NCBI GenBank assembly: GCA_964019135.1
Contig: OZ025257.1
Span: 25,776,352 to 25,840,351, forward strand
Reading direction: 5' to 3'
DNA length: 64,000 nt
Origin: Arenicola marina
Taxonomy: Eukaryota; Annelida; Polychaeta; Arenicolidae
The translations under genes and the position numbers were made by a program. Below, in pieces: positions 10,129 through 47,000 of the stretch. Numbering within the stretch: position 1 is the stretch's first letter; each line of letters starts with the position of its first letter. The notes beneath the pieces were generated by a model that was not told the origin of the DNA, ran no database searches, and saw nothing but the letters and a program-made list of their open reading frames with translations.

Positions 10129-10220
10129 TTGCTGCCCCACTAACCTCTTTCCGGTCCCACCGGCCTCTTCCATGTCGTAACCATACAATAGACGTCTTGT
10201 TTACGCAATAGTCTTTCTTA

Positions 10221-15490: not shown

Positions 15491-15850
15491 AAGCAGTTTA
15501 AACACATCCGCGCCGTTTCAACGCACCTGCGCAGTTTCAACTTACTCGCGCGCCGTTTCCGCCTACACCCGTGCCGTTTCAATCTACACGCGCGCCGTTT
15601 CAATCTACACGCGCGCCGTTTCAACCTACACGCGCGCCGTTTCAACCTACACGCGCGCCGTTTCAATCTACACGCGCGCCGTTTCAACCTACACGCGCGC
15701 CGTTTCAACCTACACGCTCGCCGTTTCAACCTACACGCTCGCCGTTTCAATCTACACGCGCGCCGTTTCAACCCACACGCGCGCCGTTTCAAGCGTTTTT
15801 TTCTATTTCACATACCTTATGACCGCTATGGCGCTTCATATATATGTGTG
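15491..15850 (-). repeat. 20-bp minisatellite inside a repeat element, copy 2 (inverted)
   Basis: About 14 units of a 20-bp repeat, GCCGTTTCAACCTACACGCG, end in an arm (15,791-15,850) that is the reverse complement of the arm at 12,971-13,018. It is opposite in orientation to copy 1, and the units here are more homogeneous. The array directly follows the dispersed repeat that ends at 15,490. Confidence 0.8.
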
Positions 15851-16835: not shown

Positions 16836-19800
16836 CTGTGGGAGTTACAGACGTGGGGTCATACAGACGTGGGGTCATACAGACATGGGGTCATACAGAC
16901 GTGGGGTCACGCAGACGTGAGGTCATACAGATATGGGGTCATAGAGACGTGGGTTCATACAGACGTGAGGTCATAAGACGTGGGGTCATACAAACATGGG
17001 GTCATACAGACGTGGGGTCATACAAACGTGGGGTCATACAGACGTGGGGTCATACAGATGTGTGGTCATACAGATATGGGAGTCATACAGACGTGGGGTC
17101 ATACAGACGTGGGGTCATACAGACATGGGGTCATACAGGCGTGGGGTCATACAAACAAGAGGTCATACAGGCGTGGGGTCATACAGACGTGAGGTCATAC
17201 AGATGTGGGGTCATACAGACGTAGGGTCATACAGACGTGGGGTCATGCAGACGTGGGGTCATACAGACATGGGGTCATACAGGCGTGGGGTCATACAAAC
17301 AAGAGGTCATACAGGCGTGGGGTCATACAGACGTGAGGTCATACAGACGTGGGGTCATACAGACGTAGGGTCATACAAAAGTGAGGTCCTACAGACGTGG
17401 GGTCATACAGACGTGGGCTTATACAGTCGTGGGGTCATACAGACGTGGGGTCATACAGACGTGGGGTCATACAGACGTGGGGTCATGCAGACGTGGGGTC
17501 ATACAGACGTGGGGTCATGCAGACGTGGGGTCATACAGACGTGGGGTCATACAGACGTAGGGTCATACAGACGTGGGGTCATACAGACGTGGGGTTATAC
17601 AGTCGTGGGGTCATGCAGACGTGGGGTCATACAGACGTGGGGTCATACAGACGTAGGGTCATACAGACGTGAGGTCATACAGACGTGGGGTCATACAGAC
17701 GTGGGGTCATGCAGACGTGGGATCATACAGACGTGGGCCATGGGCCAATAAAATCCGACACTGGCTGAGTGTACTTGGCCAGTACCAGGCTATTACATTC
17801 ATATTTGCTGGGAACGCTCGCTTCATGTGCATATATTTCAATTATCACAAGATAACACTATGTGATCATGTTATTCCACATATCCATAATAAATCTCGGG
17901 AGAAATTTTCTTAAAGCAGAGACTCAACAATCAGACAAGCAATGTATTTCCCAATGTATGTTTTAAGGAACTGTAGCCAAAAAAGTGTGATCTGATACTC
18001 GAGGAAAATTCGGGTGGTTCCGATTGTAACCACGTGGTGGCGCATGCTTCTGACGCGTCCATCTCCTCATTCAACCATTGATTTTACCCGTTATTCTACA
18101 TACCGTCACCCAGCTCGAGGAACTCACCGAGCCCCAGAAATCGGAAGATTTGGCTAGCGAAAGCAGCTTTGTCTCTTGAAAAGTCTGCTGATCTGAGGAC
18201 GACAAGCCGGTCCTTGGGTATGACTTTCAGCCAGTCGACCAGGAAAGGGTGATAAAGTCCTGCCGTCAGCTGAACCTGCAATGCAATGGTTGTCACTCTC
18301 GGCCTTTGTCTCACTCCACTATGAGGGGAGGGAATACCTTTTCCGATCTCCTCGATTGGCATCCAGCATTTTTTTTTTCAAATCGTTGCTGGTGACATGC
18401 AAAATAACACACCTTATCAGATGGACAAAACTCGATATACAGATGGACAGACTCGGTAATTTGTTGTATCAAGTACGTAAGGGTCGTTATATATAGCGTA
18501 CCGGGGTGGCCTGGCCGTCACACACTTACCGGTGACGTTACCTGGGTGACCTGGCGGTCGTAGACGCAGGCTCTCGCCCGGCGGAGCTGCAAGCAGGCCT
18601 TCATGGCGAGTAGGCTGTGCTTCACGAGCTCATGGAAGTCCTGGGGCGTTCCTGCCAACCCCGCCACGCCGTAGTACGTGGCGTGAACCCTGGGGGGAGC
18701 CACCATCAATAATGCAAAACGCCAACCTTAACTCAAATTAAATTCGTTGTTTTATCTAATATTTGTTCACACAAGGGTTTAACTCTGCCAAGGAAATGAA
18801 ATAAATCGATGCTTCATGCCGATTTGATGCCCACAAGGTCTAAACCGGGGCAAGACACTCTTAGGAGAAGATGCGGCATTAACATATTAAACATGCTTGA
18901 AATTAGCCAGGTACCGAGGTAGGGATTCGAACCCAGGGTTTACTACTAATGTGCGATTTTTTTGTTCTCCAACGCCACCTACCGGTCAACCGGGTTGTCT
19001 AGGAGAAGAATGATTCTGATTTCTGGCCATAGGTGGTATATGACGTCAGCCAGGATGTAGAAGGGTTCCGTGCTGTTCGCCAGCTCCGGAAACTGATCCC
19101 AATGGGTGAAGTTCCACAAGTAGTTGGGCGCTACATCAACTGGCTCGGCACAACACGGCAAAACAATCATTCATTGGGGGGGGGGGGGGAGAGGGGGGTC
19201 GTGTTCCCAAGTCACGAAGAATACATTTCTTTATTCCCAGGTTACGATGCATTAAAGAGAGAACTCCCCACATACAAGGAAATGTCGGATACATGATAAA
19301 TTGGTTATTTCCCAAATCACGGTTACTTAATATTAAAATTCTCAGTTCACGATTACTTAATATTAAAATTCTCAGTTCACGATTACTTAATATTAAAATT
19401 CTCAATGCACGATTAATGAAAATCCTTGATCACGACGGTCGGCTAATATCCCATCCCCGGTTCACGGTGAAATGAAAAGCTCATTCCCAGGGAACACAAA
19501 CACCTCTCCCCCCCCACCCCCCCCACCCTGTCTCTCCTGTTCTAGTGGTGTAAGTGTTGACTTGGGAAGGACACTCTAAAGTAATTTCGAGTCCATAGGG
19601 AGGGTTAAGAGTTGAGCGGAACAGTGACTATCGGGGATGACTCCAACTATTTTCGAAAATGGACATGGTATCTTCCTCCTGCACAACTTAAGGGCCCCTG
19701 AGGGGGGGTAGCCATGTCGCGTGTCGATTTTAAGAAAAGGTCCATGTCGCGTGTCGATTTTAAGAAAAGTTCTATGTCGCGTGTCGCTAAGTCTTATGTC

Positions 19801-22800
19801 GCATGTCGATTCTAAGACAGCCCCAATGTCGCGTTGTCGATTTTAAAAATCGCCCGTGTCGCCGTGTCGAAAAAGCCCCTCTGGGGCCCTAACTTACGGT
19901 ACGATGGCTGGCTACTGTCATGCGTTCTGTCAGGCCAGTCAGTTTGGCCCCGTTAGATTCTAGATATAATGATCTAATAGATATCTAATAGATATTATAT
20001 CTATATTATCTATACGTAAGGCTACTGTAGGTATAGTTAAGGTTAATGCCCGCTTAGACTATAATGTTAGTGTATTTAAGGTTCGATTTTGTCGAAGGCC
20101 CCCAATGCCAGTAAAGCTGGCATGTATCCAAGCCTCGGTCTTGCTTGGTTAGCTTGCGACCGGGGGGGGGGCGGGGATCTGAACAACATTTCTAAAAAAA
20201 AGGGGGGGGGGGTCCACGCCATAGATTGCCTAAATTCGGACGGCATTCTTCCTCAAAAAGAAGAGGGGGTCCGGACCCCCTGGACCCCCCCCCCCCTGGA
20301 TCCGCCTTTGATCTAGCTGAGGCCAACAATGGCTTATCATCTACTGCTAATAAACAGGGCCATAGAACGGTAATAGCGGTCCATCTAATGGTCTGCATAC
20401 ACATAGTTCTTTCGCATGCTAATGCTCGACTGTTTAAAGGCTGTCGCCAGTCTGCCCTGTAACGCTGCTTTACCGATTTATGTAATACCCAAGTGTCTAT
20501 CCTCCAAATTACAGAAGTTTCCGTTTTGTCTGTAGCTCACAATAACATTTAGAAGTGACCGCCAGCTACGATTTCACCGGTTAACCAGGCGGCAGCCGTT
20601 TTTTGGATGTGTGTCCGCGATATACCAATCAGGAGGCGATACTCACTGATTTATTCAAACTGAAAGTGACGCTTACAGAAGAAACAAACAAGAGCGATTT
20701 TAACTCCAATCATATCTTTTTACGGAGGCAATCGTTGCAAGAGATATATCAATGTGTTTGGATGCTATTTTTCCATGAAACACTAAGATCATCATCTACT
20801 GCGCGGCTTGGAAGTGCCGCAATTTTATCCGTAAATCGCGGCCCTGATCTCTCGTTTCACGTGTTTCACAGTCACTGTGAAGCGTTCCTTCCGCGAGATC
20901 ACACGCGAGTTATAACGCAAAGCGGCGCCACATGAAGGGTCACAATATACGTCACATCCTTCGGCAAAATGACGCGCTGCTCGGCAGTGATGAGGGCGGG
21001 TTGCCACAATTTTTTTCTCTTTACCAGTCGGCCGAAACTCAGCGTTAACTCCACACGATTTAATTTTAATGTGTAAACTTTGGGTGCAGATCGCGATTAG
21101 GTTAGCTTTACACCCGCTTTCAGGTTAATTTCTAATAGAAATCATTGTCTATCTGTATCAATTACCAAGAGAGACCAATAGACCGCCATGGTCTAATGGC
21201 CACGCACAGTCATGGGTGGGAACACTTACACGTGACCTTGCTGTGAAATAACCGCCCCTTGACGGTCTTGTTGTCCTGCCCAATCAGCTCTGCGGCCACA
21301 TCAAACAGGTCCAGATAGTCATCCAGCCGACACCTGTCTGTGGACCTCAACAACATCAACATCAAACAGGTCCAGATAGTCATCCAGCCGACACCTGTCT
21401 GTGGACCTCAACAACATCAACATCAAACAGGTCGAGATAGTCACCCAGCCGACACATGTCTGTGGACCTCAACATCAAACAGGTTCAGATAATCATCGAG
21501 CCGACACCTGTCTGTGGACCTCAACAACATCAACATCAAACAGGTCGAGATAGTCATCGAGCCGACACCTGTCTGTGGACCTCAACAACATCAACATCAA
21601 ACAGGTCGAGATAGTCACCCAGCCGACACATGTCTGTGGACCTCAACATCAAACAGGTTCAGATAATCATCGAGCCGACACCTGTCTGTGGACCTCAACA
21701 ACATCAACATCAAACAGGTCGAGATAGTCATCCAGCCGACACCTGTCTGTGGACCTCAACAACATCAACATCAAACAGGTCCAGATAGTCATCCAGCCGA
21801 CACCTGTCTGTGGACCTCAACAACATCAACATCAAACAGGTCGAGATAGTCACCCAGCCGACACATGTCTGTGGACCTCAACATCAAACAGGTTCAGATA
21901 ATCATCGAGCCGACACCTGTCTGTGGACCTCAACAACATCAACATCAAACAGGTCGAGATAGTCATCCAGCCGACACCTGTCTGTGGACCTCAACAACAT
22001 CAACATCAAACAGGTCGAGATAGTCACCCAGCCGACACATGTCTGTGGACCTCAACATCAAACAGGTTCAGATAATCATCGAGCCGACACCTGTCTGTGG
22101 ACCTCAACAACATCAACATCAAACAGGTCGAGATAGTCACCCAGCCGACACATGTCTGTGGACCTCAACATCAAACAGGTTCAGATAATCATCGAGCCGA
22201 CACCTGTCTGTGGACCTCAACAACATCAACATCAAACAGGTCGAGATAGTCATCGAGCCGACACCTGTCTGTGGACCTCAACAACATCAACATCAAACAG
22301 GTCGAGATAGTCACCCAGCCGACACATGTCTGTGGACCTCAACATCAAACAGGTTCAGATAATCATCGAGCCGACACCTGTCTGTGGACCTCAACAACAT
22401 CAACATCAAACAGGTCGAGATAGTCACCCAGCCGACACATGTCTGTGGACCTCAACATCAAACAGGTTCAGATAATCATCGAGCCGACACCTGTCTGTGG
22501 ACCTCAACAACATCAACATCAAACAGGTCGAGATAGTCATCGAGCCGACACCTGTCTGTGGACCTCAACAACATCAACATCAAACAGGTCGAGATAGTCA
22601 CCCAGCCGACACATGTCTGTGGACCTCAACATCAAACAGGTTCAGATAATCATCGAGCCGACACCTGTCTGTGGACCTCAACAACATCAACATCAAACAG
22701 GTCCAGATAGTCATCCAGCCGACACCTGTCTGTGGACCTCAACAACATCAACATCAAACAGGTCGAGATAGTCATCCAGCCGACACCTGTCTGTGGACCT

Positions 22801-25800
22801 CAACAACATCAACATCAAACAGGTCCAGATAGTCATCCAGCCGACACCTGTCTGTGGACCTCAACAACATCAACATCAAACAGGTCCAGATAGTCATCCA
22901 GCCGACACATGTCTGTGGACCTCAACAACATCAACATCAAACAGGTCGAGATAGTCACCCAGCCGACACATGTCTGTGGACCTCAACATCAAACAGGTTC
23001 AGATAATCATCGAGCCGACACCTGTCTGTGGACCTCAACAACATCAACATCAAACAGGTCGAGATAGTCATCCAGCCGACACATGTCTGTGGACCTCAAC
23101 AACATCAACATCAAACAGGTCGAGATAGTCACCCAGCCGACACATGTCTGTGGACCTCAACATCAAACAGGTTCAGATAATCATCGAGCCGACCCCTGTC
23201 TGTGGACCTCAACAACATCAACATCAAACAGGTCGAGATAGTCACCCAGCTGACACATATATGTGGACCTCAACAACATCAATATCAAACAGGTCCAGAG
23301 TACGGGAGGCGAACTGACCTGTGTGGTAGAGGTGCTGGGTGGCTGTGAGTACGGGAGGCGGACTGACCTGTGTGATAGAGGAGCTGAGTGGATGTGAGTA
23401 CGGGAGGCGGACTGACCTGTGTGATAGAGGAGCTGGGTGGCTGTAAGTACGGGAGGCGGACTGACCTGTGTGGTAGAGGAGCTGGGTGGCTGTGAGTACG
23501 GGAGGCGGACTGACCTATGTGGTAGAGAAGCTGGGTGGCTGTGAGTAGGGGAGGCGGACTGACCTGTGTGGTAGAGGAGCTGGGTGGCTGTGAGTACGGG
23601 AGGCGGACTGACCTGTGTGGTAGAGGAGCTGGGGGGCTGTGAGTAGGGGAGGCGGACTGACCTGTGTGGTAGAGGAGCTGGGTGGGTGTGAGTACGGGAG
23701 GCGGACTGACCTGTGTGATAGAGGAGCTGGGTGGCTGTGAGTATAGGAGGCGGACTGACCTGTGTGGTAGAGGCGCTGGGTGGCTGTGAGTACGGGAGGC
23801 GGACTGACCTGTGTGATAGAGGAGCTGGGTGGCTGTGAGTAGGGGAGGCGGACTGACCTGTGTGGTAGAGGAGCTGGGTGGCTGTGAGTAGGGGAGGCGG
23901 ACTGACCTGTGTGGTAGAGGAGCTGGGTGGGTGTGAGTACGGGAGGCGGACTGACCTGTGTGGTAGAGGAGCTGGGGGGCTGTGCGTACGGGAGGCGAAC
24001 TGACCTGTGTGATAGAGGAGCTGGGTGGGTGTGAGTAGGGGAGGCGGACTGACCTGTGTGGTAGAGGAGCTGGGGGGCTGTGAGTACGGGAGGCGAACTG
24101 ACCTGTGTGATAGAGGAGCTGGGTGGCTGTGTGAGTACGGGAGGCGGATTGACCTGTGTGGTAGAGGAGCTGGGGGGCTGTGAGTACGGGAGGCGGACTG
24201 ACCTGTGTGGTAGAGGAGCTGGGTGGCTGTGAGTACGGGAGGCGGACTGACCTGTGAGGTAGAGGAGCTGGGTGGCTGTGAGTACGGGAGGCGGACTGAC
24301 CTGTGTGGTAGAGGAGCTGGGTGGCTGTGAGTAGGGGAGGCGGACTGACCTGTGTGGTAGAGGAGCTGGGTGGCTGTGAGTAGGGGAGGCGGACTGACCT
24401 GTGTGGTAGAGGAGCTGGGTGGCTGTGAGTACGGGAGGCGGACTGACCTGTGTGGTAGAGGAGCTGGGTGGGTGTGAGTACGGGAGGCGGACTGACCTGT
24501 GTGATAGAGGAGCTGGGTGGCTGTGAGTATAGGAGGCGGACTGACCTGTGTGGTAGAGGCGCTGGGTGGCTGTGAGTACGGGAGGCGGACTGACCTGTGT
24601 GATAGAGGAGCTGGGTGGCTGTGAGTAGGGGAGGCGGACTGACCTGTGTGGTAGAGGAGCTGGGTGGCTGTGAGTAGGGGAGGCGGACTGACCTGTGTGG
24701 TAGAGGAGCTGGGTGGGTGTGAGTACGGGAGGCGGACTGACCTGTGTGGTAGAGGAGCTGGGGGGCTGTGCGTACGGGAGGCGAACTGACCTGTGTGATA
24801 GAGGAGCTGGGTGGGTGTGAGTAGGGGAGGCGGACTGACCTGTGTGGTAGAGGAGCTGGGGGGCTGTGAGTACGGGAGGCGAACTGACCTGTGTGATAGA
24901 GGAGCTGGGTGGCTGTGTGAGTACGGGAGGCGGATTGACCTGTGTGGTAGAGGAGCTGGGGGGCTGTGAGTACGGGAGGCGGACTGACCTGTGTGGTAGA
25001 GGAGCTGGGTGGCTGTGAGTACGGGAGGCGGACTGACCTGTGAGGTAGAGGAGCTGGGTGGCTGTGAGTAGGGGAGGCGGACTGACCTGTGTGGTAGAGG
25101 AGCTGGGTGGCTGTGAGTACGGGAGGCGGACTGACCTGTGTGGTAGAGGAGCTGGGTGGCTGTGTGAGTACGGGAGGCGGACTGACCTGTGTGGTAGAGG
25201 AGCTGGGTGGCTGTGAGTAGGGGAGGCGGACTGACCTGTGTGATAGAGGAGTTGGGTGGGTGTGAGTACGGGAGGCGGACTGACCTGTGTGGTAGAGGAG
25301 CTGGGTGGCTGTGAGTAGGGGAGGCGGACTGACCTGTGTGATAGAGGAGTTGGGTGGGTGTGAGTACGGGAGGCGGACTGACCTGTGTGGTAAAGGAGCT
25401 GGGTGGCTGTGAGTAGGGGAGGCGGACTGACCTGTGTGGTAGAGGAGCTGGGTGGCTGTGAGAATAGGAGGCGGACTGACCTGTGTGATAGAGGCGCTGG
25501 GTGGCTGTGAGTACGGGAGACGGACTGACCTGTGTGATAGAGAAGCTGGGTGGCTGTGAGTAGGGGAGGCGGACTGACCTGTGTGGTAGAGGAGCTGGGT
25601 GGCTGTGAGTAGGGGAGGCGGACTGACCTGTGTGGTAGAGGAGCTGGGTGGCTGTGAGTAGGGGAGGCGGACTGACCTGTGTGGTAGAGGAGCTGGGTGG
25701 CTGTGGGAGTACGGGAGGCGGACTGACCTGCGTGGTAGAGGGCTGGGTGGCTGTGAGTAGGGGAGGCGGACTGACCTGTGTGATAGAGGAGCTGGGTGGC

Positions 25801-28800
25801 TGTGAGTAGGGGAGGCGGACTGACCTGTGTGGTAGAGGAGCTGGGTGGGTGTGAGTACGGGAGGCGGACTGACCTGTGTGGTAGAGGCGCTGGGTGGCTG
25901 TGAGTACGGGAGGCGGACTGACCTGTGTGATAGAGGAGCTGGGTGGCTGTGAGTAGGGGAGGCGGACTGACCTGTCTGGTAGAGGAGCTGGGTGGCTGTG
26001 AGTAGGGGAGGCGGACTGACCTGTGTGATAGAGGAGCTGGGTGGCTGTGAGTAGGGGAGGCGGACTGACCTGTGTGATAGAGGAGCTGGGTGGCTGTGAG
26101 TAGGGGAGGCGGACTGACCTGTCTGGTAGAGGAGCTGGGTGGCTGTGAGTAGGGGAGGCGGACTGACCTGTCTGGTAGAGGAGCTGGGTGGCTGTGAGTA
26201 GGGGAGGCGGACTGACCTGTGTGATAGAGGAGCTGGGTGGCTGTGAGTAGGGGAGGCGGACTGACCTGTCTGGTAGAGGAGCTGGGTGGCTGTGAGTAGG
26301 GGAGGCGGACTGACCTGTCTGGTAGAGGAGCTGGGTGGCTGTGAGTAGGGGAGGCGGACTGACTTGTGTGATAGAGGAGCTGGGTGGCTGTGAGTAGGGG
26401 AGGCGGACTGACCTGTCTGGTAGAGGAGCTGGGTGGCTGTGAGTAGGGGAGGCGGACTGACCTGTCTGGTAGAGGAGCTGGGTGGCCGTGAGTAGGGGAG
26501 GCGGACTGACTTGTCTGGTAAAGGAGCTGGGTGGCTGTGAGTAGGGGAGGCGGACTGACCTGTGTGGTAGAGGAGCTGGGTGGATGTGAGTAGCGGAGGC
26601 GGACTGACCTGTCTGGTAGAGGAGCTGGGTGGCTGTGAGTACGGGAGGCGGACTGACCTGTGTGATAGAGGAGCTGGGTGGCTGTGAGTAGGGGAGGCGG
26701 ACTGACCTGTCTGGTAGAGGAGCTGGGTGGGTGTGAGTACGGGAGGCGGACTGACCTGTGTGGTAGAGGCGCTGGGTGGCTGTGAGTACGGGAAGCGGGC
26801 TGACCTGTGTGATAGAGGAGCTGGGTGGCTGTGAGTAGGGGAGGCGGACTGACCTGTGTGGTAGAGGAGCTGGGTGGCTGTGAGTAGGGGAGGCGGACTG
26901 ACCTGTGTGGTAGAGGAGCTGGGTGGGTGTGAGTACGGGAGGCGGACTGACCTGTGTGGTAGAGGCGCTGGGTGGCTGTGAGTACGGGAAGCGGGCTGAC
27001 CTGTGTGATAGAGGAGCTGGGTGGCTGTGAGTAGGGGAGGCGGACTGACCTGTGTGGTAGAGGAGCTGGGTGGCTGTGAGTAGGGGAGGCGGACTGACCT
27101 GTCTGGTAGAGGAGCTGGGTGGCTGTGAGTAGGGGAGGCGGACTGACCTGTGTGATAGAGGAGCTGGGTGGCTGTGAGTAGGGGAGGCGGACTGACCTGT
27201 CTGGTAGAGGCGCTGGGTGGCTGTGAGTACGGGAGGCGGACTGACCTGTGTGGTAGAGGAGCTGGGTGGCTGTGAGTACGGGAGGCGGACTGACCTGTGT
27301 GGTAGAGGAGCTGGGTGGCTGTGAGTAGGGGAGGCGGACTGACCTGTGTGGTAGAGGAGCTGGGTGGCTGTGAGTACGGGAGGCGGACTGACCTGTGTGG
27401 TAGAAGAGCTGGGTGGCTGTGAGTAGGGGAGGCGGACTGACCTGTCTGGTAGAGGAGCTGGGTGGCTGTGTGTACGGGAGGCGGACTGACCTGTGAGGTA
27501 GAGGAGCTGGGTGGCTGTGAGTAGGGGAGGCGGACTGACCTGTGTGGTAGAGGAGCTGGGTGGCTGTGAGTAGGGGAGGCGGACTGACCTGTGTGGTAGA
27601 GGAGCTGGGTGGCTGTGAGTTCGGGAGGCGGACTGACCTGTGTGGTAGAAGAGCTGGGTGGCTGTGAGTAGGGGAGGCGGACTGACCTGTCTGGTAGAGG
27701 AGCTGGGTGGCTGTGAGTACGGGAGGCGGACTGACCTGTGTGGTAGAGGAGCTGGGTGGCTGTGAGTAGGGGAGGCGGACTGACCTGTGTGATAGAGGAG
27801 CTGGGTGGCTGTGAGTAGGGGAGGCGGACTGACCTGTGTGGTAGAGGAGCTGGGTGGCTGTGAGTACGGGAGGCGGACTGACCTGTGTGGTAGAGGAGCT
27901 GGGTGGCTGTGAGTACGGGAGGCGGACTGACCTGTGTGATAGAGGAGCTGGGTGGCTGTGAGTAGGGGAGGCGGACTGACCTGTGTGGTAGAGGAGCTGG
28001 GTGGCTGTGAGTACGGGAGGCGGACTGACCTGTGTGATAGAGGAGCTGGGTGGCTGTGAGTAGGGGAGGCGGACTGACCTGTGTGGTAGAGGAGCTGGGT
28101 GGCTGTGAGTACGGGAGGCGGACTGACCTGTGTGGTATAGGAGCTGGGTGGCTGTGAGTAGGGGAGGCGGACTGACCTGTGTGGTAGAGGAGCTGGGTGG
28201 CTGTGAGTAGGGGAGGCGGACTGACCTGTGTGATAGAGGAGCTGGGTGGCTGTAAGTACGGGAGGCGGACTGACCTCTGTGGTAGAGGAGCTGGGTGGGT
28301 GTGAGTACCGGAGGCGGACTGACCTGTGTGGTAGAGGAGCTGGGTGGCTGTGAGTAGATGAGGCGGACTGACCTGTCTGGTAGAGGAGCTGGGTGGCTGT
28401 GAGTAGGGGAGGCGGACTGACCTGTGTGATAGAGGAGCTGGGTGGCTGTGAGTACGGAAGGCGGACTGACCTGTGTGGTAGAGGAGCTGGGTGGCTGTGA
28501 GTAGGGGAGGCGGACTGACCTGTGTGGTAGAGGAGCTGGGTGGCTGTGAGTAGGGGAGGCGGACTGACCTGTCTGGTAGAGGAGCTGGGTGGCTGTGAGT
28601 AGGGTAGGCGGACTGACCTGTCTGGTAGAGGAGCTGGGTGGCTGTGAGTAGGGGAGGCGGACTGACCTGTGTGGTAGAGGAGCTGGGTGGCTGTGAGTAG
28701 GGGAGGCGGACTGACCTGTGTGGTAGAGGAGCTGGGTGGCTGTGAGTAGGGGAGGCGGACTGACCTTTGTGATAGAGGAGTTGGGTGGCTGTGAGTAGGG

Positions 28801-31786
28801 GAGACGGACTGACCTGTCTGGTAGAGGAGCTGGGTGGCTGTGAGTAGGGTAGGCGGACTGACCTGTCTGGTAGAGGAGCTGGGTGGCTGTGAGTAGGGGA
28901 GGCGGACTGACCTGTGTGGTAGAGGAGCTGGGTGGCTGTGAGTAGGGGAGGCGGACTGACCTGTGTGGTAGAGGAGCTGGGTGGCTGTGAGTAGGGGAGG
29001 CGGACTGACCTGTGTGGTAGAGGAGCTGGGTGGCTGTGAGTACGGGAGGCGGACTGACCTGTGTGATAGAGGAGTTGGGTGGCTGTGAGTAGGGGAGGCG
29101 GACTGACCTGTGTGGTAGAGGAGCTGGGTGGCTGTGAGTAGGGGAGGCGGACTGACCTGTGTGGTAGAGGAGCTGGGTGGCTGTGAGTAGGGGAGGCGGA
29201 CTGACCTGTGTGGTAGAGGAGCTGGGTGGCTGTGAGTAGGGGAGGCGGACTGACCTGTGTGGTAGAGGAGCTGGGTGGCTGTGAGTAGGGGAGGCGGACT
29301 GACCTGTGTGGTAGAGGAGCTGGGTGGCTGTGAGTACGGGAGGCGGACTGACCTGTGTGATAGAGGAGTTGGGTGGCTGTGAGTAGGGGAGGCGGAATGA
29401 CCTGTGTGATAGAGGCGCTGGGTGGCTGTGAGTAGGGGAGGCGGACTGACCTGTGTAGTAGAGGAGCTGGGTGGCTGTGAGTAGGGGAGGCGGACTGACC
29501 TGTGTGGTAGAAGAGCTGGGTGGCTGTGAGTAGGGGAGGCGGACTGACCTGTGTGGTAGAGGAGCTGGGTGGCTGTGAGTAGGGGAGGCGGACTGACCTG
29601 TGTGGTAGAGGAGCTGGGTGGCTGTGAGTAGGGGAGGCGAACTGACCTGTGTGGTAGAGGAGCTGGGTGGCTGTGAGTAGGGGAGGCGGACTGACCTGTG
29701 TGATAGAGGAGCTGGGTGGCTGTGAGTAGGGGAGGCGGACTGACCTGTGTGGTAGAGGCGCTGGGTGGCTGTGAGTACGGGAGGCGGACTGACCTGTGTG
29801 GTAGAGGAGCTGGGTGGCTGTGAGCAGGGGAGGCGGACTGACCTGTGTGGTAGAGGAGCTGGGTGGCTGTGAGTAGGGGAGGCGGACTGACCTGTGTGGT
29901 AGAGGAGCTGGGTGGCTGTGAGTATGGGAGGCGGACTGACCTGTGTGATAGAGGAGCTGGGTGGCTGTGAGTAGGGGAGGCGGACTGACCTGTCTGGTAG
30001 AAGAGCTGGGTGGCTGTGAGTAGGGGAGGCGGACTGACCTGTGTGGTAGAGGAGCTGGGTGGCTGTGAGTAGGGGAGGCGGACTGACCTGTGTGGTAGAG
30101 GAGCTGGGTGGCTGTGAGTAGGGGAGGCGGACTGACCAGTGTGGTAGAGGAGCTGGGTGGGTGTGAGTACGGGAGGCGGACTGACCTGTGTGGTAGAGGA
30201 GCTGGGTGGCTGTGAGTAGGGGAGGCGGACTGACCTGTGTGGTAGAGGAGCTGGGTGGCTGTGAGTAGGGGAGGCGGACTGACCTGTGTGATAGAGGAGC
30301 TGGGTGGCTGTGAGTAGGGGAGGCGGACTGACCTGTGTGGTAGAGGAGCTGGGTGGGTGTGAGTACGGGAGGCGGACTGACCTGTGTGGTAGAGGAGCTG
30401 GGTGGCTGTGAGTAGGGGAGGCGGACTGACCTGTGTGGTAGAGGAGGTGGGTGGCTGTGAGTACGGGAGGCGGACTGACCTGTGTGATAGAGGAGCTGGG
30501 TGGCTGTGAGTAGGGGAGGCGGACTGACCTGTGTGATAGAGGAGCTCCGTCGCAGCCCTAACTGGTGGCAAGACATCTTGGTGATACGCCAGGCTTTCCA
30601 TCAACTCCTTCGCCTCCTCAATGGATGACCCGATGATATAGAAAAACGGCAGACAGCGCATGCGCCAACCAGCTTTCGCTGGCCCTCTTACTATGATGTG
30701 TTTCTTGAGCATGCGCAGTGAAGGCTCATGGGTGACCCCGAAGCAGTTGTCGCGGTATAATGTGTTAGAATCTTCCACCTTCTCTTGCCAACACGGGTTT
30801 CGATATTTTCGCAGATCCTGAAATAACGACTGACAAAGGCAAAAGCATGTTTAAGATTAAGCCTTAATATGTCTTAATATGATAATAGATAAAAACAAAT
30901 ATCTGTGTAATAAATGACACACTTTTTTCAAGCGAAAATCTGGTCTGAGATTTTGTGATAATCGTATACGATGACAATGAACAGTTTTATTGTAAGTAAA
31001 TGAATAGTAAAGTGCATGACTGTATGGAAACCTTAAATCACAAATATTACACACATTATTTTCTTGAAGCCTACCATTTATAAAATAAAAATTCGGAACA
31101 TATTTTATTGGAACAATTTGAAGTAATAACTACTGTCTAGTATTCTCTGCTCGGCCGGCCCAACCGGTGCGTGGCTCGAATCCCACCTGTGGAGATACCT
31201 ATGTTTGTGCAGCTTAAGGACCCATGTCTTTCTTCACCAAGAGCAGGAGGCTTACTTGCTCCCAGAGACATGGCTCTTCTCTACCTTAACCCTTCCCATT
31301 GTGGCGATGTGACATACGCAGGGTGAAGAGTTGTACATAGACAAGTACCAGTTCACCCCCTCCCCCCTCCTTCCCCTCAGCGTGTCCAGTACTCACCCCG
31401 TTCACAGCCTTACGCATCAGGTCATCCACGGCCAGACCGTTGAAGAACAGCTGCTGCTTCCTCGAGTTCAGCGTGTGACGCCGGTCCCACGCCTCAGGGT
31501 CCTGTTGCCCATAGCGACCCCTGTGGAGCTGAACCCTGGCCGCTTGGGGCTCCCCCACGGCTTGGGGGGCTGGAGCCTCGGCGCCCCACGGGGGGAGACC
31601 CCCGGGCGCCTGGGGATCTGTGTCCTTGGTCGGCCGTCCGGTCTCGCGGGCGCCGGTCTCGCGGGCGCCATACCCCGTGACCAGGCCGTCAATGTACGAG
31701 ATGACGACGTAGGTGATGGCGGCGATGACGGCCAGCGTGGTGTACCGTCTGAGAGCGCTACGCCAGGCGGTCCGCTGCGAGAACAT
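16663..31786 (-). CDS. CHST15-like: CHST15-like carbohydrate sulfotransferase, probable pseudoenzyme (gene span, 7 coding exons)
   Basis: Coding exons in transcript order: 31786-31397, 30817-30529, 21337-21230, 19139-18983, 18689-18530, 18275-18104 (or to 18128) and 16835-16663. All junctions are GT-AG and the phases agree, giving 482 aa (or 474). A type II membrane anchor lies at about residues 16-32, as expected for a Golgi enzyme. The body resembles CHST15 (GalNAc4S-6-O-sulfotransferase) throughout: NPCW near 137, MRCLPFFYIIG at 183-193, DDYLDLFDVAAE, RACVYDRQ, GLYHPFLVDWL, FRFLGLG and a C-terminal FYSGFNQKLARLLDDNRFLW. The family transfers sulfate from PAPS to chondroitin/dermatan. Here the 5'-PSB loop after FYIIG (193-203) lacks the Lys/Gly/Thr residues. 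The 3'-PB motif reads DNPVDRVHA (310-318), without its Arg and Ser. Catalysis is therefore doubtful. The family call is secure; exact orthology is not. Confidence 0.88.
16850..17735. repeat. 16-bp minisatellite in the last intron
   Basis: About 55 units of GGGTCATACAGACGTG (plus strand), with variants ATACAGGCGTG, ATACAAACG and ATGCAGACG. It occupies the 3' end of the intron before coding exon 7, almost touching the acceptor. The branch point and most of the pyrimidine tract must therefore come from repeat units. Confidence 0.95.
17736..18103. other. Remainder of intron 6, nothing recognised
   Basis: Unique intronic sequence between the 16-bp array and coding exon 6. No repeat or RNA gene is evident. 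Confidence 0.6.
18104..18275 (-). CDS. CHST15-like: CHST15-like coding exon 6, with two in-frame donors
   Basis: The acceptor is TTGCATTGCAG|GTTCAG, phase 0. It encodes the segment with GLYHPFLVDWLKVIPKDRLV and FRFLGLG, corresponding to the conserved C-terminal part of CHST15. Two donors 24 nt apart are both in phase 1: CTCG|GTGAGT (exon end 18,128) and GACG|GTATGT (exon end 18,104). The downstream one adds eight residues. The upstream site has the better consensus, so either or both may be used. Confidence 0.85.
18530..18689 (-). CDS. CHST15-like: CHST15-like coding exon 5
   Basis: The acceptor is GGCTCCCCCCAG|GGTTC (phase 2 entry) and the donor ACCG|GTAAGT (phase 0). It starts with the second half of the 3'-phosphate motif (R-V-H-A-T-Y-Y) and contains PQDFHELV and RARACVYDRQ, which align with CHST15. 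The Ser expected in the 3'-PB motif is Ala here. Confidence 0.87.
18690..18982. other. Intron 4 with a tRNA-like B-box fragment
   Basis: The intron carries GGGTTCGAATCCCTACC on the minus strand at about 18,921-18,937. This is a good Pol III B-box core, but no A box is visible, so it is probably the remnant of a tRNA-derived SINE. Confidence 0.4.
18983..19139 (-). CDS. CHST15-like: CHST15-like coding exon 4
   Basis: The acceptor is TGCCGAGCCAG|TTGATG (phase 1) and the donor GACCG|GTAGGT (phase 2). It encodes FDVAPNYLWNFTHWDQFPEL, then the strand and turn IRIILLLDNPVDR that should be the PAPS 3'-phosphate site. The invariant Arg and Asp of the RDP core are replaced by Asp and Asn. Confidence 0.87.
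19318..19420. repeat. 30-bp tandem repeat, about 3.5 copies, in intron 3
   Basis: Near-identical 30-bp units starting CACGATTACTTAATATTAAA and ending AATTCTCAGTT. No similarity to the neighbouring splice junctions is seen. Confidence 0.9.
19712..19870. repeat. 29-bp degenerate tandem repeat in intron 3
   Basis: Four to five units around ATGTCGCGTGTCGATTTTAA, progressively degenerate. Further downstream (20,160-20,310) are homopolymeric G and C runs flanking GGGGGTCCGGACCCCC, a palindrome that may be the edge of another mobile element. Confidence 0.8.
20461..21120 (+). repeat. Dispersed repeat family, copy 2 (intron 3)
   Basis: Direct-orientation homologue of 14,847-15,490, starting AACGCTGCTTTACCGATTTA and ending ACACCCGCTTT. 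It contains a small insertion relative to copy 1 near 20,860-20,890. It lies within the intron between coding exons 3 and 4 of the sulfotransferase-like gene, antisense to it. Confidence 0.8.
21230..21337 (-). CDS. CHST15-like: CHST15-like coding exon 3
   Basis: The acceptor is GAGGTCCACAG|ACAGGTGTCGG (phase 1) and the donor TCACGT|GTAAGT (phase 1). It encodes DRCRLDDYLDLFDVAAELIG and a basic loop, matching the EDYLDLFDLAA region of CHST15. Its first ~40 nt, together with the acceptor, are the founder of the tandem array that fills the upstream intron. Confidence 0.87.
21338..23297 (-). repeat. Array of acceptor-plus-exon-start copies (61/52-bp units, about 33)
   Basis: On the minus strand each unit contains GAGGTCCACAG|ACAGGTGTCGG and then CTGGACCTGTTTGATGT. 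This is the 3' splice site and about 40 nt of coding exon 3, joined by a TGATGTTGTT linker. Units alternate between 61 and 52 bp, the difference being one AACAACATC block. Variants gtCCag, gtCGag and gtTCag recur in blocks, indicating higher-order amplification. The array is continuous with the exon at 21,337 and abuts the donor-derived array at 23,298. Confidence 0.95.
23298..30528 (-). repeat. Array of exon-end-plus-donor copies (49-bp units, about 148)
   Basis: On the minus strand each unit reads CTCCTCTACCACACAG|GTCAGT followed by CCGCCTCCCCTACTCACAG. The founder is the real end of coding exon 2, CTCCTCTATCACACAG|GTCAGT at 30,529/30,528. Every unit therefore carries a near-perfect 5' splice site. 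Upstream in each unit CCTACTCACAG also resembles a 3' splice site, which would bound a 24-nt micro-exon. The minus-strand unit has no stop codon in any frame, so exon 2 reads open for about 2,400 further codons. A few units have small indels (for example near 24,130 and 25,150). Confidence 0.96.
30529..30817 (-). CDS. CHST15-like: CHST15-like coding exon 2
   Basis: The acceptor is CGTTATTTCAG|GATCTG (phase 0) and the donor CACAG|GTCAGT (phase 1). It encodes KYRNPCWQEK, a basic linker, then RMRCLPFFYIIG, which in CHST15 leads straight into the PAPS 5'-phosphosulfate loop. Here the loop is SSIEEAKELMESL, with none of the Lys, Gly or Thr residues that bind PAPS. The last eight codons (ATELLYHT) are the template of the 49-bp array downstream. 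Confidence 0.88.
30818..31396. other. Intron 1, with a SINE-like fragment
   Basis: Mostly AT-rich intron. At about 31,170-31,190 on the plus strand, GTGGCTCGAATCCCACC resembles a tRNA-type B box, suggesting a SINE remnant. There is no tandem array in this intron. Confidence 0.45.
31397..31786 (-). CDS. CHST15-like: CHST15-like coding exon 1 (start Met, membrane anchor)
   Basis: ATG at 31,786 with a donor AACGGG|GTGAGT (phase 0). Residues 1-15 are basic, and TLAVIAAITYVVISYI forms the signal-anchor, giving a type II topology. A low-complexity stem rich in Gly, Pro and Ala follows, with a short duplicated GARETGARET motif. A strong acceptor (pyrimidine tract, CCCACCCCAG|GACC) 13 nt upstream of the ATG indicates that a 5' UTR exon lies further upstream. 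Confidence 0.82.
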
Positions 31787-31859: not shown

Positions 31860-32425
31860 ATTGGCGGTGGTTTAAATGCTGGTCTGAGGGCTGGTTTAAC
31901 GGCTGGTCTAACGGCTGGTCTGACGGCTGGTCTAAAGGCTGGTCTGAGGACTGTTCCAAGGGCTGGTCTGACGGCTGGTCTGATAGCTGGTCTGAGGACT
32001 GGTCTAAAGCTGGTCTAAATGCTGGTTTGAGGACTGGTCTGAGGGCTGGTCAGACTGGTCTAAAGGCTGGTCTAAACCTGGTCTAAAGGCTGGTCTGATG
32101 ACTGGTCCAATGGCTGGTCTGAGGGCTGGTCAGACTGGTCTAAAGGCTGGTCTGAGGACTGGTCTAAAGCTGGTCTAAATGCTGGTCTAAACCTGGTCGA
32201 AAAGCTGGTCTGAGGGCTGGTCCAAGGGCTCGTCTGAGGGTTGGTCTAAAAGCTGGTCTGTGGGCTGGTCTAAAGCTGGTCTAAAGGCTGGTCTGAGGAC
32301 TGGTCTAAAGCTGGTCTGACGGCTGGTCTGACGGCTGGTCTGACGGCTGGGCTGTGGGCTGGTCTGAAAGCTGGTCTGTGGGCTGGTCTGACGGCTGGTC
32401 TGCCGCCCGATCTGAAGACTGGTCT
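31860..32425. repeat. About 10/20-bp GGCTGGTCTGA array in the putative 5' UTR intron
   Basis: Units AGGCTGGTCTGA, CGGCTGGTCTAA and GACTGGTCTAA repeat for about 565 bp, with degenerate edges. It lies just upstream (in the transcript) of the acceptor that precedes coding exon 1, so it probably sits in the 5' UTR intron of the sulfotransferase-like gene. Confidence 0.9.
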
Positions 32426-33430
32426 GGCCCGATCTATGGCCTGGTTAATGACAGACCCATGGATCGGGCGGAGGACTGTTGTGACGATTGATCTAAGCAA
32501 CAGTCTCACGACGGATCCACGACCAGATCCTGTGACTGATCCGACACTTCCTCAGTTAGTCTAGGGACCCAAATTAGTATTGACGAAAAAATACTGATCT
32601 AATCTGAATCCAGAAACTGTCCCACGGCTGATCTAGTGATCTTCAAGTTAGTTATGTTTTTTTATGTTCGATCGTCGCGTTCGAAGGTTTGTACCCTCGA
32701 TATTCCAGTGTGAGGCACTGTATTTCCAATATTGCACGTAAACCGGTGTAACGTGCGATGGTTCGAAATTATTTCGATATTCCTGTGCGGTGATATCCTA
32801 GATCCTTATCCGAAGCTTCACACTTCTGACATTCGCGCCTGTCAATCACAATACTTTCGAACGCCATTTGCATGTAAGTTTTAATACTGTACATCGTTCG
32901 CTGTCCTGTAAGGTCATAATGAAGACATCCATGCTATATTCAGAATATATTCCAAGTCAAACCAGCGGTCGTTCTGTTGAAGCGTATATATAGAGCTACG
33001 TTGTAAGTTGGGAAACTACGGCGGCCCATACAACTTCGCTACGGGGTGTGGTGACATCATTGCGATAAGTGTGCGGGAGGAATGGTGAAACGCCACCGAT
33101 GGAGGGAGTCCTAGCTTATTGTTCCTGTGGACTACAGTAAGGAGAACATCGTTTGACAGGGCGACAGTGTCTCCATATGGACATCATCTATGTTATAATG
33201 TCAAAGCTACAAGACGGAGAAGTAAATGTCACCACATACAGAGCGGCCTCAAGCGGAGTAAGCTCGTCTCTATAAACATATTCAGTCCGGGCAGATGGGA
33301 GGGTGTGTAGGGGGGGGGGGGGAGGTGGGGGTAGCGGTGTGGCAGGTCGGGGGTAGCCGTACGGCGGTCCGGTAGGTGGGGAGTGTCGGCTCCGAGTCAA
33401 TCGGTGCGTACGTGGGTTGTACCGCTACAA
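32426..33430. other. No gene recognised
   Basis: Unique sequence with a poly-G run near 33,310. It may contain the first exon or promoter of the sulfotransferase-like gene, but I cannot place it. Confidence 0.5.
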
Positions 33431-41093: not shown

Positions 41094-44000
41094 CTGAAAC
41101 AACGAGAGGGGAGGGCGTCAGGGTTACCTACTAGCGCACACCCCAATTACCATAGTTACCGCGAGAGGGAGTTTCACCACACTATTACACTGGACTCAAT
41201 ACAATATTGACTGCTCATGACGTCCGCATTAAATAATGTTAAGTTATAAAATTGAAAACAAACCCGACCGGAGCGGGTGCGGTGTTATTCAGTAAAGCCC
41301 GAGGGGTATTTACGTTGGGGAGGGGGGTGGGGGGTTATCACGGGGAGTGGGTATGTAAACGGCTGGCTTGAGGTGAGAGTATGAGCTGTGGTGGGAGGCG
41401 GGGCGTGGAGAGTGGGGCGGGGCGTGGGGAGGGGGAGGAGGGTGGAGAGGGGGGAGGAGGAAAGGGGGGGGGGGTTACTCACGCGAGCAGTGCCTTTCGT
41501 CCGTGCCGTCCTTGCAGTCATCAGCGCCGTCACACACCCAGTACTCGTATATACACCGACCGTTGCCACAGAGAAACGTGCCGTTGTGTGGGCCGCATCG
41601 GGTCGGCGCTGAAAGAAGGATATGAAATTCCGGTTGTTTCAGGCCCGTTTCGTGCACACAAGGGCTCAATTGGGCCAAGGAACCCCCGGGGGCACTGCAT
41701 GATTTTGATAATGAAATATACCCCAGAGTAGATCCCCCAGATCGGGTATCGAACAGAGGTTGGTTGTATATTTCAGGTCGCTATAGCCAATTCTGTTCAT
41801 ATCGCGCCAATGGGAGGAGGAAGCTCTTTGCGAAGAAGGACATGGGCGCTTTATCCTGCGACCACACAGACATGGCCACAGCGGGGCTCGAACCACCGCT
41901 CCACGTGCCGTTAGGCTCTCAGGTGTCCAGAGCACTCAATGCGAGCGCTCCAACCCACTGAGCTATCGGGGCGGCCCCGGATCGGCTCCGGACAGCTAGT
42001 CTAGGGAGCTAGTCGAACAGTCGTTGAGGGGTCACCAGGCGGTGGTGAGTGGGGTGGCGGTCACCAGGGTTATGGTACGGTATCATTTACTGAGCTAGGT
42101 AGGTACGAGGCGACATGTCATACGAGGTTGATCAAATGGTTTTAAGCCGCTCATACAGCAATTTTCCACCCGCAGTATAATCCTCAAAATCTTTTGCAGA
42201 AACGTGCCCGACACAATATATGTGCATTTATACACGCGATCGCAAAAAAACATAATTTCCATGGACAAAAACATTTCAAACAAACAGGACAAATAAAATA
42301 AATCATCTTCCTTAATACGCATGTTTCATCATGGCATAAGGTACAAACGTGTACCAGTTGTCATTACTGCAGGTTAAAAAAATCTAACTTTATGCTTTAT
42401 CGTCTCGACGGGTAGAGGGATTATCGCAGTTGGCACAAAATAATGAAGCGGAAATATCGGTGCAGAACAACCACTCACTGCACTGTAGCTCGTCGTGCTG
42501 GTTGCTGCAGTCTGTATTCCCATCGCACCGCTGGCTGCTCAGGTAACACTCCGAGCGAACGTCGCACGAAAACTGTTCATTCGAGCAGTCACCTGCAGGG
42601 AAAAATAGTGAACTTTGAACTTTTATTTCCTGTTCTCACAATACATGTAGTTTTCTGTCGTCCGTTTACGCGATCTTTCAGGGTCTGCGTCGCCTAAAAG
42701 AGAGATAATGTAACTTCCTGGATCTCCATGAGGGCGGCCAGTTAACATATTCATTGACAGACTTGGCGTCATGACCAGCAAACGATATCATATTTCTTCG
42801 AATGGTCTTTGCTCTTATCTATGCGATAATAAACAGAAATCTAGCTTTACGTTTAAGCAACTAATAGTGTAGCTTTATATTTAATAATAAAAGTCTAAAT
42901 CAGCAATAATTAAATATATCTTAGTTATTGAATAAACGTTGGCCATTAACTGTACACAAATCCCCTTACCTAAATCGACGGAAATTCCGCCATATATACA
43001 TATAAAGATATGGCACAATACTGTAGTACATGGGTACTCGGTATCGTCGCTTGATAGTGTACTTAACAAGGCGTCAGTGCAAGAGTGCTTACGACACGAG
43101 GCCCTGGTGCACGAGTACTTTAGACACGAGACCGCAGTGCACGAGTGCTTACGACACGAGGCCCTGGTGCACTTGTACTTTAGACAAGAGACCCCGGTGC
43201 ACGCGTACTTTAGACACGAGACCCCGGTGCACGTGTACTTACGACAGCCAAGTTCGTCGCCTCCGTAGCGGCGGCAGTCCCACTTGCCGTCGCACTGGCC
43301 GGCCTTGGGGTAGCAGTCCCTCTCAGCTGGCCCACAGAACAGCTGATCACTGAGGCAGGCTCCTGCAGCCGCACAAGGACACGATAACCAGTTAGACGTC
43401 ATGAACTAATAATGGGTTCGTGTAAATATCTCTTACATATAACACATTACTCAATTTACAGGTAATAAACAAATCACATAAACAATCTTATTGCAAGACG
43501 GGTCATACTTGTATATATTTCCAGTTTAGCGACACTCTCAGAATACTTATACGACTATCACGTACCATCCACAGTGCGGTAAATATGCTCTCTTGGTGAG
43601 AAATTTGATGCCAACGTAAATTATTATTTATTGATACAGTATTGCACGTAAATAATCTGATGATTAGCTCCCTAACCTCAAGCCAAATCAGGCACACAAA
43701 GTCTATCGTTTGCCCTGACAAACCAAGTCTATCGTTTCTTGTGACAAACCAAGTCGATCGTTTGTCGCGAGAAACCAAGTCTATCGCTTCTCGTGACAAA
43801 CCACGGGTCTGGTTTCTCTAGCCAAATTCAATGTCTGGTGCACTTGGTTTGGCACGACCACCAATATACGTGGATCGCCAAGACGAACGATAGCCTTGTG
43901 GGGCACAGACTGGACGCTCACCTTTCTGCTGGAAGGTGAAGTTGAAGGGCGCCGGGTCGGTCACGTTCCCGGTGTGGTACAGCAGCAGCATCTGGTTGCC

Positions 44001-47000
44001 GGCCGACTCGATGACGTCAGGCGGGGGGTACCCGTGGCGGTACGACCCCACCAGCCGGGCCCGCGGCGTCCCCCCGTCGTACACCTCCAGGTACGCCCCA
44101 TCGGCCGCCGGGGCGAAATCGACCCGCCGTAGCTGCACCGCTCCCTGCCAGCCCACGTGGAGGTGCCACTGACACACGGTCAACTTGGGCAGGTTAGAGG
44201 TCGGGGTGACCACGCCCGTGGCGGTCTCCAGGTGGTAGGAACACGCGGTGCTGGCGTCTGTGATCCGGACGGAATCAGGATCAGGTTATCGACTATTAGG
44301 GAGGGGGTTTGGAGGGGGGGAGGCGGGGTGGGCAGTCAGGGTTACTTCATCGGGTCAAAAGTCACAACGATTTTCCTCCCGCCACACTCCATATGGCCTC
44401 GTAAAACTTCATGCCAACGCGAAATGTATTATTTTCTGGACTTAATATTTAGTTTTTAGACGCATAGATAAATGTGTATGGTAATCTCATCCTCATCCTC
44501 GTCCTCGCCACCCAGGCAGTGGGTCACGCCATGACCCCCACCCCCACGTCTGCTCAACAGTCCTTCTCGTCCTCGCCACCTGGCAGTGGGTCACGCCATC
44601 ACCCCCCCCCGCCCACCCAGCCACCCCCACGACAGCTCACCAGTCCTTCTCGTCCTCGCCACCCTGGCAGTGGGTCCCGCCATCACCACCCCCCCCCCCC
44701 CACACACACACACCCCGCCACCCCCACGACAGCTCACCACAGTCCTTCTCGTCCTCGCCACCCAGGCAGTGGGTCACGCCATCACCCCCACCCACCCAGC
44801 CACCCCCGACGTCTGCTCACCACAGTCCTTCTCGTCCTCGCCACCCTGGCAGTGGGTCACGCCATCACCCGCCCCCCCACCCAGCCACCCCCCACGTCTG
44901 CTCACCACAGTCCTTCTCGTCCTCGCCACCCTGGCAGTGGGTCACGCCATCACCCCCCCCCCACACACACACACACACACACACCCCGCCACCCCCACGA
45001 CAGCTCACCACAGTCCTTCTCGTCCTCGCCACCCAGGCAGTGGGTCACGCCATCACCCCCACCCACCCAGCCACCCCCCACGTCTGCTCACCACAGTCCT
45101 TCTCGTCCTCGCCACCCTGGCAGTGGGTCACGCCATCACCCGCCCCCCCACCCAGCCACCCCCCACGTCTGCTCACCACAGACCTTCTCGTCCTCGCCAC
45201 CCAGGCAGTGGGTCACGCCATCACCCGCCCCCCCACCCAGCTGCTCACCACAGTCCTTCTCGTCCTCGCCACCCAGGCAGTGGGTCACGCCATCACCCCC
45301 CCCCCCTCCCAGCCACCCCCACGACAGCTCACCACAGTCCTTCTCGTCCTCGCCACCCTGGCAGTGGGTCACGCCATCACCCCTCCCCCCACCCAGCCAC
45401 CCCCACGACAGCTCACCACAGTCCTTCTCGTCCTCGCCACCCTGGCAGTGGGTCACGCCGTCACCCCCCCCCCCCCACACACACACACACACCCCGCCAC
45501 CCCCCACGACAGCTCACCACAGTCCTTCTCGTCCTCGCCACCCTGGCAGTGGGTCACGCCGTCACACAGGGTGGAGTTCTGGAAGCAGCGATACTGGTCG
45601 GACTGGCGGTCGACGCAGCCGAACCACAGCGGGCCGCAGCTATACTTCGGGATGATCGGGGGGTGCCACTCGGCTGGGGGGAGAAACGGGGGGAGCGTCA
45701 GGGTGAGAGAAACAGGGTCACACTCAGGGTGAGAGAAATAGGGTGACCGTCAGGGTGAGAGAAACAGGCTGATCGTCAGGGTGACCGTCAGGGTGAGAGA
45801 AACAGGCTGATCGTCACGGTGACCGTCAGGGTGAGAGAAACAGGGTGAGAGAAATAAGCTGACCCTCAGGGAGAGAAACAGGGTGATCGTCAGGGCTAGA
45901 GAGAAACAGGGTGACCGTCAGGGTGACAGAAACATTGCGACCGTCAGGTCGAGAGAAACAGGGTGATCGTCAGGGCTAGAGAGAAACAGGGTGACCGTCA
46001 GGGTGACAGAAACATTGCGACCGTCAGGTCGAGAGAAACAGGGTGATCGTCAGGGCTAGAGAGAAACAGGGTGACCGTCAGGGTGACAGAAACATTGTGA
46101 CCGCCAGGGCGAGAGAAACAGGGTGATCATCAGGGCTAGAGAGAAACAGGGTGACGGTCAGGGTGACAGAAACATTGTGACCGTCAGGGCGAGAGAAACA
46201 GGGTGATCGTCAGGGCTAGAGAGAAACAGGGTGACGGTCAGGGTGACAGAAACATTGCGACCGTCAGGTCGAGAGAAACAGGGTGACCGTCAGGGCGAGA
46301 GAAACAGGGTGACCGTCAGGGCTAGAGAGAAACAGGGTGACCGTCAGGGCGAGAGAAACAGGGTGATGATCAGAGCGAGAGAAACAGGGTGACCGTCGGG
46401 TGCAAGTTAACACCTAGCTCTCCGTTGTGCAACATAATGATACAAACCGTGTGAACAATGCTTAAACCACAATGATACCTGCCGTGTAAACAGTTCTCCT
46501 TAAACCACAATGATACCTACCCTGTGAACAGTTATCCTTAAACCACAATGATACCTGCCGTGTAAACAGTTCTCCTTAAACCACAATGATACCTGCCGTG
46601 TGAACAGGTCTCCTTAAACCACAATGATACCTGCCGTGTGAACAGTTATCCTTAAACCACAATGATACCTGCCGTGTGAACAGTTCTCCTTAAACCACAA
46701 TGATACCTGTCATGTTAACAGGTCTCCTTAAACCACAATGATACCTGCCGTGTGAACAGTTCTGCTTAAACCACAATGATACTTGCCATGTGAACAGGTC
46801 TCCTTAAGCCACAATGATACCTGCCGTGTGAACAGTTATTCTATAAACCACAATGATACCTGCCGTGTGAACAGTTCTCCTTAAACCACAATGATACCTG
46901 CCGTGTGAACAGGTCTCTTTGAACCACAATGATACCTGCCGTGTGAACAGGTCTCTTTGAACCACAATGATACCTACCTTGTGTACAGGTCTGCTCGTCC

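Follow-up and report, generated by a model that had tools for sequence, protein, structure and literature searches.

Tandem duplications of exon-intron boundaries, termed mirages, have been described in the amphioxus Adh3, globin, troponin C and PGBD5 genes, according to two reports (PMC3087553, PMC3902484). The globin genes BflGb6 and BflGb9 carry mirages, whose units measure 150-160 bp, and BflGb6 contains 6 and 3 units in two haplotypes (PMC3087553). Adh3 mirages, as cited in the same paper, consist of 10-72 bp units and combine length and somatic instability with regular splicing, and the PGBD5 and troponin C mirages were added by PMC3902484. In both papers, regular splicing is undisturbed by the published mirages. 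Intronic minisatellites have also been described in lophotrochozoans, including intron 3 of an abalone TSSK1-like gene, with a 27-bp unit (PMC6905558), and intron 1 of an earthworm metallothionein gene (PMC12783039).

We analyzed a 64-kb stretch of DNA (hereafter, the window), in which intron 2 of a CHST15-like gene consists of copies of its own two splice junctions. An earlier note on this DNA knew of no standard class of intron with such a structure, a statement that has to yield to the amphioxus mirages already described in PMC3087553 and PMC3902484. We propose, with a probability of about 0.68, that intron 2 represents an array of the mirage type, two-sided and filling the whole intron, which originated through junction duplications, expanded by unequal exchange, is spliced out and is anchored by the exons.

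Organization of CHST15-like intron 2

The CHST15-like gene is located on the minus strand and contains seven coding exons with a 467-aa open frame, and all of its six introns are of the GT-AG type. Intron 2 (30528-21338; 9191 bp; phase 1) is devoid of array-free bases. Segmentation assigned each of its 9191 bp to either a donor-junction or an acceptor-junction array, in agreement with the earlier proposal that the intron lacks unique sequence. The intron array had previously been delimited as 21230..30817; the array is real, but these limits take in both flanking exons (Table 1).

Each donor unit starts with the exon 2 end and proceeds to GTCAGT and the intron start, and each acceptor unit consists of the intron end (...CCACAG) followed by the first 39-40 nt of exon 3. 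Sequence found in neither exon accounts for about 25-31 nt of each donor unit and 22 nt of each acceptor unit. The final 24 nt of exon 2 agree with the donor unit consensus at 20 of 24 positions, as counted by eye on the alignment. TRF returned the array limits listed in Table 1, with a period of 49 bp, 147.8 copies and 94% matches for the donor array and with a period of 61 bp, 34.3 copies and a higher-order period of 174 bp for the acceptor array. The earlier note had counted about 148 donor copies of 49 bp, running to 23,298, and about 33 acceptor copies of 61/52 bp, and both counts hold. A BLAST search of intron 2 with the two real junctions detected 147 copies spanning the donor junction with 18 nt of exon and 33 additional copies spanning the acceptor junction with up to 40 nt of exon within intron 2. 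The best copies are 100% identical to the authentic junctions over 43 nt (donor) and 65 nt (acceptor). The two arrays meet at the position originally assigned to their encounter, where they share a TC dinucleotide (23299-23298), and the partial unit of the acceptor array sits at this meeting point in the segmentation.

The splice signals are retained in nearly all copies. The donor GT is kept in 148 of 148 units and the donor 9-mer CAG/GTCAGT in 137 of 148, and the acceptor AG is kept in 33 of 34 units, the sole exception being the outermost unit, at the meeting point.

Table 1. Exons of the CHST15-like gene that flank intron 2 and tandem arrays associated with splice junctions
Feature	Position in the window	Strand	Description
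Exon 3, CHST15-like gene	21230..21337	-	108 nt; initial 39-40 nt recur in acceptor array
Acceptor-junction array	21298..23299	-	34 full units including the authentic one, plus one partial; 61 or 52 bp
Array meeting point	23298..23299	-	2-bp overlap, TC on gene strand
Donor-junction array	23298..30546	-	148 units including the authentic one; 49 bp, exactly 49 bp in 144
Exon 2, CHST15-like gene	30529..30817	-	289 nt; terminal 18 nt recur in donor array
16-bp array	16846..17737	-	Ends 10 nt before acceptor of CHST15-like exon 7 (16835)
Weak 30-bp array, donor of LRP exon ending 43243	43075..43246	-	About 4 nt of exon; 1 BLAST copy, E 0.059
About 85-bp array, donor of LDLa exon ending 45518	44538..45565	-	10 BLAST copies; 48 nt of exon
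26-bp array	45681..46402	-	Ends 7 nt before acceptor of LRP exon starting 45673; exon not entered
38-bp array, donor of LRP exon ending 46978	46461..46992	-	10 BLAST copies; about 15-18 nt of exon

Junction arrays in the window and integrity of the CHST15-like gene

Beyond what the earlier note had recorded, further junctions within the same window bear arrays of the same type. The neighboring LRP3/10/12-like gene is located on the minus strand and contains nine exons with an intact 805-aa frame. Donor-junction copies were identified by BLAST at three of its eight introns, one of them weak. The TRF end of the 85-bp LDLa array is 45474, and this array was extended by hand to include the exon copy. 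In the weak 30-bp array, GT is lost in most copies. The 38-bp and 26-bp arrays cover 1239 of the 1304 bp of the LRP intron 46977-45674 (arithmetic from the coordinates). This intron is nearly full from both ends, with 58 bp separating the arrays, and perhaps captures the same process before completion.

Are such arrays located at splice junctions more frequently than expected by chance? Across both genes, arrays occupy 13,996 of the 20,910 intron bases, and junction-spanning copies are present at 5 of the 28 tested junctions, one of them weak. The positions of 14 TRF arrays (including 48888-49012) were evaluated against a null in which one unit per array was placed randomly in introns with the arrays collapsed. 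Five of the 14 intronic arrays span a junction, compared with 1.70 by chance (P 0.0185), and eight lie within 11 nt of one, compared with 2.39 by chance (P 0.0006), in a small test that covers two genes of one window, contains one hand-extended array and uses cut-offs (3 nt and 11 nt) set post hoc. When the two arrays of intron 2 were excluded, 3 of 12 arrays spanned a junction (P 0.022) and 6 of 12 were near one (P 0.00007), in a run whose null is too lax because intron 2 was kept at its full 9191 bp. Among the 10 arrays of at least three copies, five were spanning (P 0.003) and seven were near (P 0.0002). Our conclusions on anchoring rely on the 14-array run. As an exon-interior control, the exons were tiled into 1159 24-mers, of which 40 have at least three matches elsewhere; with a cut-off of 24 nt, these comprise 20 of the 246 junction-near 24-mers and 20 of the 913 interior ones. 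Three of the 20 interior 24-mers extend junction segments (at 24 and 27 nt from the start of exon 3 and at 27-30 nt before the end of the LDLa exon) and have at least about 13 matches, and the remainder occur in 3-12 copies deeper within exon 3, exon 7 and LRP exon 9. The control is thus less sharp than a yes/no answer, and the junction argument therefore rests on the BLAST searches with real junctions.

The intact LRP-like gene bears on one alternative, in which the CHST15-like gene is decaying or a pseudogene, so that splicing no longer matters and repeats at its junctions can persist only for this reason. The best named relatives of the CHST15-like protein are squid N-acetylgalactosamine 4-sulfate 6-O-sulfotransferase and bivalve and gastropod proteins, with 28-32% identity over part of the sequence. 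Compared with four molluscan relatives, the protein has SSIEEAK in place of the P-loop PKCGTT/PKSGTT and a degenerate RNPxxRLYSDY. Its Pfam sulfotransferase scores are below the curated cut-offs. These features would suit a gene in decay, but the frame retains 467 stop-free codons and the introns are clean GT-AG introns. Because the LRP-like gene carries junction arrays with its frame intact, decay is not needed to account for them, and we consider this alternative unlikely. The CHST15-like protein, whose frame is intact, may be inactive as a sulfotransferase.

The 467-aa CHST15-like protein found no match in the PDB at E 0.001. A 129-aa piece yielded unconvincing PDB matches (best E 0.14) and none in Pfam, and the Rfam search gave 0 matches at the gathering threshold. 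The top named protein matches come from chiton, Solemya, Haliotis, Lottia and Mytilus (35-39%). No match named as lancelet occurs among the best 120 of 207 LRP matches or among the 28 CHST15 matches, the latter from a search that scored only the 8000 candidates with the most shared words, and amphioxus as the source finds no support in these protein searches. In a 16-row tree, the window sequence groups with molluscs at 85/76, which is below the strong mark, and occupies a long branch. By protein comparison, the host is probably a lophotrochozoan near molluscs.

The window contains additional repeats and open frames. Upstream of the CHST15-like start codon are a 38-bp array and a 12-bp array (33438-37490 and 31878-32426), which perhaps reside within a 5' UTR intron. 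The units of two 21-bp arrays (13019-13195 and 15509-15792) resemble mutual reverse complements by eye and may mark the termini of a mobile element. The minus-strand translations of 15197-15517 and 20828-21124 have long similar runs in common by eye, and both segments are probably members of one dispersed repeat. A minus-strand ORF at 54495-55298 has an SGNH-hydrolase-like start, produced one weak match with PF13472 in a protein search and is perhaps of retroelement origin. Very long arrays are located at the window ends, at 6-10129 (40-bp unit; 253 copies) and 56955-64000 (44-bp unit; higher-order periods of 88/132 bp).

Homogenization and origin of the arrays

Both arrays of intron 2 undergo concerted evolution. 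The 148 donor units represent 54 distinct sequences, and 12 successive unit types recur 16 units on. Given that the longest run in 200 shuffles averaged 3.6 units and reached 7 at maximum, this recurrence points to block duplication in the donor array. The 174-bp pattern of the acceptor array likewise reflects concerted evolution. The identity of donor units to the authentic junction declines weakly with distance (Spearman -0.17, P 0.035), and 10 of the 147 units are identical to it over 43 nt. Such a slight gradient indicates that homogenization acts on the donor array as a whole and not by outward copying from the exon, and counts against re-seeding by the exon copy, which predicts that the nearest units are most similar to the exon.

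The pattern of variation within the units was analyzed for signs of selection. The donor 9-mer exhibits 0.89 distinct variants per column, compared with 1.0 elsewhere in the unit, and thus no extra constraint was detected in the 9-mer across the 148 units (P 0.46), as expected of passive copies. However, GT and the next two bases are invariant in all 148 units and form the sole variant-free four-column stretch, which counts against the passive-copy reading. In the acceptor unit, variable columns number 9 of 39 in the exon-like part and 1 of 22 in the intron-like part (P 0.08).

Could the array copies themselves be spliced? They might serve as alternative donors, 24-nt mini-exons or recursive splice points and introduce variable ATQLLYHT-like repeats into the protein. 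In 129 of 147 units, the donor is preceded at a distance of exactly 24 nt by an AG, which would delimit a stop-free, phase 1-1 mini-exon. Eighty-five of these 129 mini-exons read ATQLLYHT, and exon 2 ends in ...ATELLYHT; the 18 nt preceding the mini-exon AG are 81% pyrimidine. Moreover, the sense strand of the 7.2-kb donor array contains one stop in total over its three frames, compared with 26-55 per frame in five mononucleotide shuffles, and one stop-making variant is observed where 4.16 are expected (P 0.029, one-sided, in a test chosen post hoc). However, the donor consensus is itself stop-free, so homogenization alone maintains open frames, and stop-making changes close to the donor mostly also damage the donor. 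Conservation of the donor 9-mer does not exceed that of the remaining unit, stops in the acceptor array number 42-49 per frame on the sense strand, and amphioxus mirages yield regular mRNA (PMC3087553, PMC3902484). The near absence of stops from the donor array is explained by composition and homogenization; this explanation still leaves room for a splicing-active array, which we regard as very unlikely. We assign a slightly smaller chance to a combined scheme, in which junctions are preferred minisatellite seeds in the lineage and the donor array is splicing-active, with its approximately 129 mini-exons or alternative donors providing a hypervariable repeat that tunes the protein between individuals.

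An assembly artefact that created the array itself, its length or its lack of unique sequence is scarcely plausible. Long near-identical arrays assemble poorly, and the BflGb6 mirage was misassembled in the amphioxus draft, according to PMC3087553. However, the 54 distinct donor units differ by scattered changes, the arrays run with exact continuity into exons 2 and 3, and further arrays of the same type are present in the window. The array copy number in the assembly may be off.

An equally small probability is given to the birth of intron 2 by tandem duplication of AG/GT exon sequence (Rogers-type gain), as opposed to an old intron with repeated edges. Exon-containing repeats form both intron ends with nothing else remaining, the exon 3 start ACAG/GTGTCGG matches the AG/GT motif, and such an origin has been proposed for a globin intron in PMC3087553. 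However, the units of the two arrays are unrelated and stem from two different exon edges, and every unit also contains the sequence of neither exon described above. Array-to-array base pairing that brings the splice sites together was rejected since the duplex of two donor and two acceptor units (-61.6 kcal/mol) is not unusual against mononucleotide shuffles (-54.2 kcal/mol; SD 7.9), 16% of which are as low or lower.

We return to an exon-anchored array of the mirage type and propose the following course. A short DNA segment across each splice junction was tandemly duplicated, as the observed unit of exon edge and intron edge shows. The arrays would then have grown and been homogenized by unequal exchange and block duplication, processes for which the repeated unit blocks provide the visible trace. 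By analogy with amphioxus, the surplus copies would be tolerated because they are enclosed by the outermost donor and acceptor, and splicing at these two sites would take them out with the intron. Protein-level selection would hold the exon copy, such that an anchored array could never disappear completely and could be rebuilt from that copy, which would account for the location of arrays at junctions. Finally, a deletion would have removed the unique interior and fused the arrays, which fits the 2-bp overlap at the meeting point, or the starting intron would have been very short. We propose no role for the arrays other than intron lengthening. The earlier picture of two boundaries that expanded from both ends until they met is retained in that the two junctions of the intron supply all the copies in both arrays and no other sequence remains. 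However, expansion alone is insufficient because repeat growth adds DNA and leaves the interior un-overwritten, and the account has to be completed by a deletion or by an intron that was very short at the outset.

Comparison with described systems

Should the host prove to be a lophotrochozoan, minisatellites seeded at junctions would extend beyond lancelets and could offer introns a general way to grow, and intron 2 would represent such growth taken to the point where the original intron sequence is gone. The intron also provides a natural test of splice-site choice, given that its 148 near-identical donors and 34 near-identical acceptors are indistinguishable by site strength alone. With several junction arrays per 64-kb window, the cause of their junction placement becomes approachable by a genome-wide count.

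Related copies of introner-type mobile introns occur in other introns or genes. In the 64-kb window, neither the donor unit nor the acceptor unit matches any sequence outside intron 2. Intron 2 resembles Rogers-type gain, as described in PMC3087553, in that exon sequence and splice signals are duplicated and the copies are intronic. In that model, duplication gives rise to a new intron, whereas the roughly 180 copies here lengthen an intron at its two edges. Intron 2 is also similar to the abalone and earthworm minisatellites in that tandem arrays form much of the intron. However, its units contain an exon edge, whereas the abalone and earthworm units are not known to include one (PMC6905558, PMC12783039).

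In the open-licence literature searched, junction-spanning minisatellites were found only for amphioxus (PMC3087553, PMC3902484), and a mollusc report may exist elsewhere. Measured against these sources, the novelty of intron 2 lies in its degree (both junctions, about 180 copies and no unique base) and probably in its host, and a two-sided or intron-filling mirage may already be in print.

The amphioxus mirages are the described system that shares the architecture of intron 2. As in the published mirages, the units of intron 2 combine an exon edge with the adjoining intron edge, AG/GT is retained in many units, and the units are homogenized within a cluster. Amphioxus mirages occur at 5' or 3' junctions, and their range of unit lengths overlaps that of intron 2 (Adh3, 10-72 bp). 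Unlike the mirages in these two papers, intron 2 repeats both junctions, with 147 and 33 extra copies (6 and 3 units in BflGb6), its arrays abut without a unique base, and its host is probably a lophotrochozoan. Intron 2 thus displays the structural hallmarks of a mirage, namely a boundary-spanning unit, copies of the splice signals and concerted evolution.
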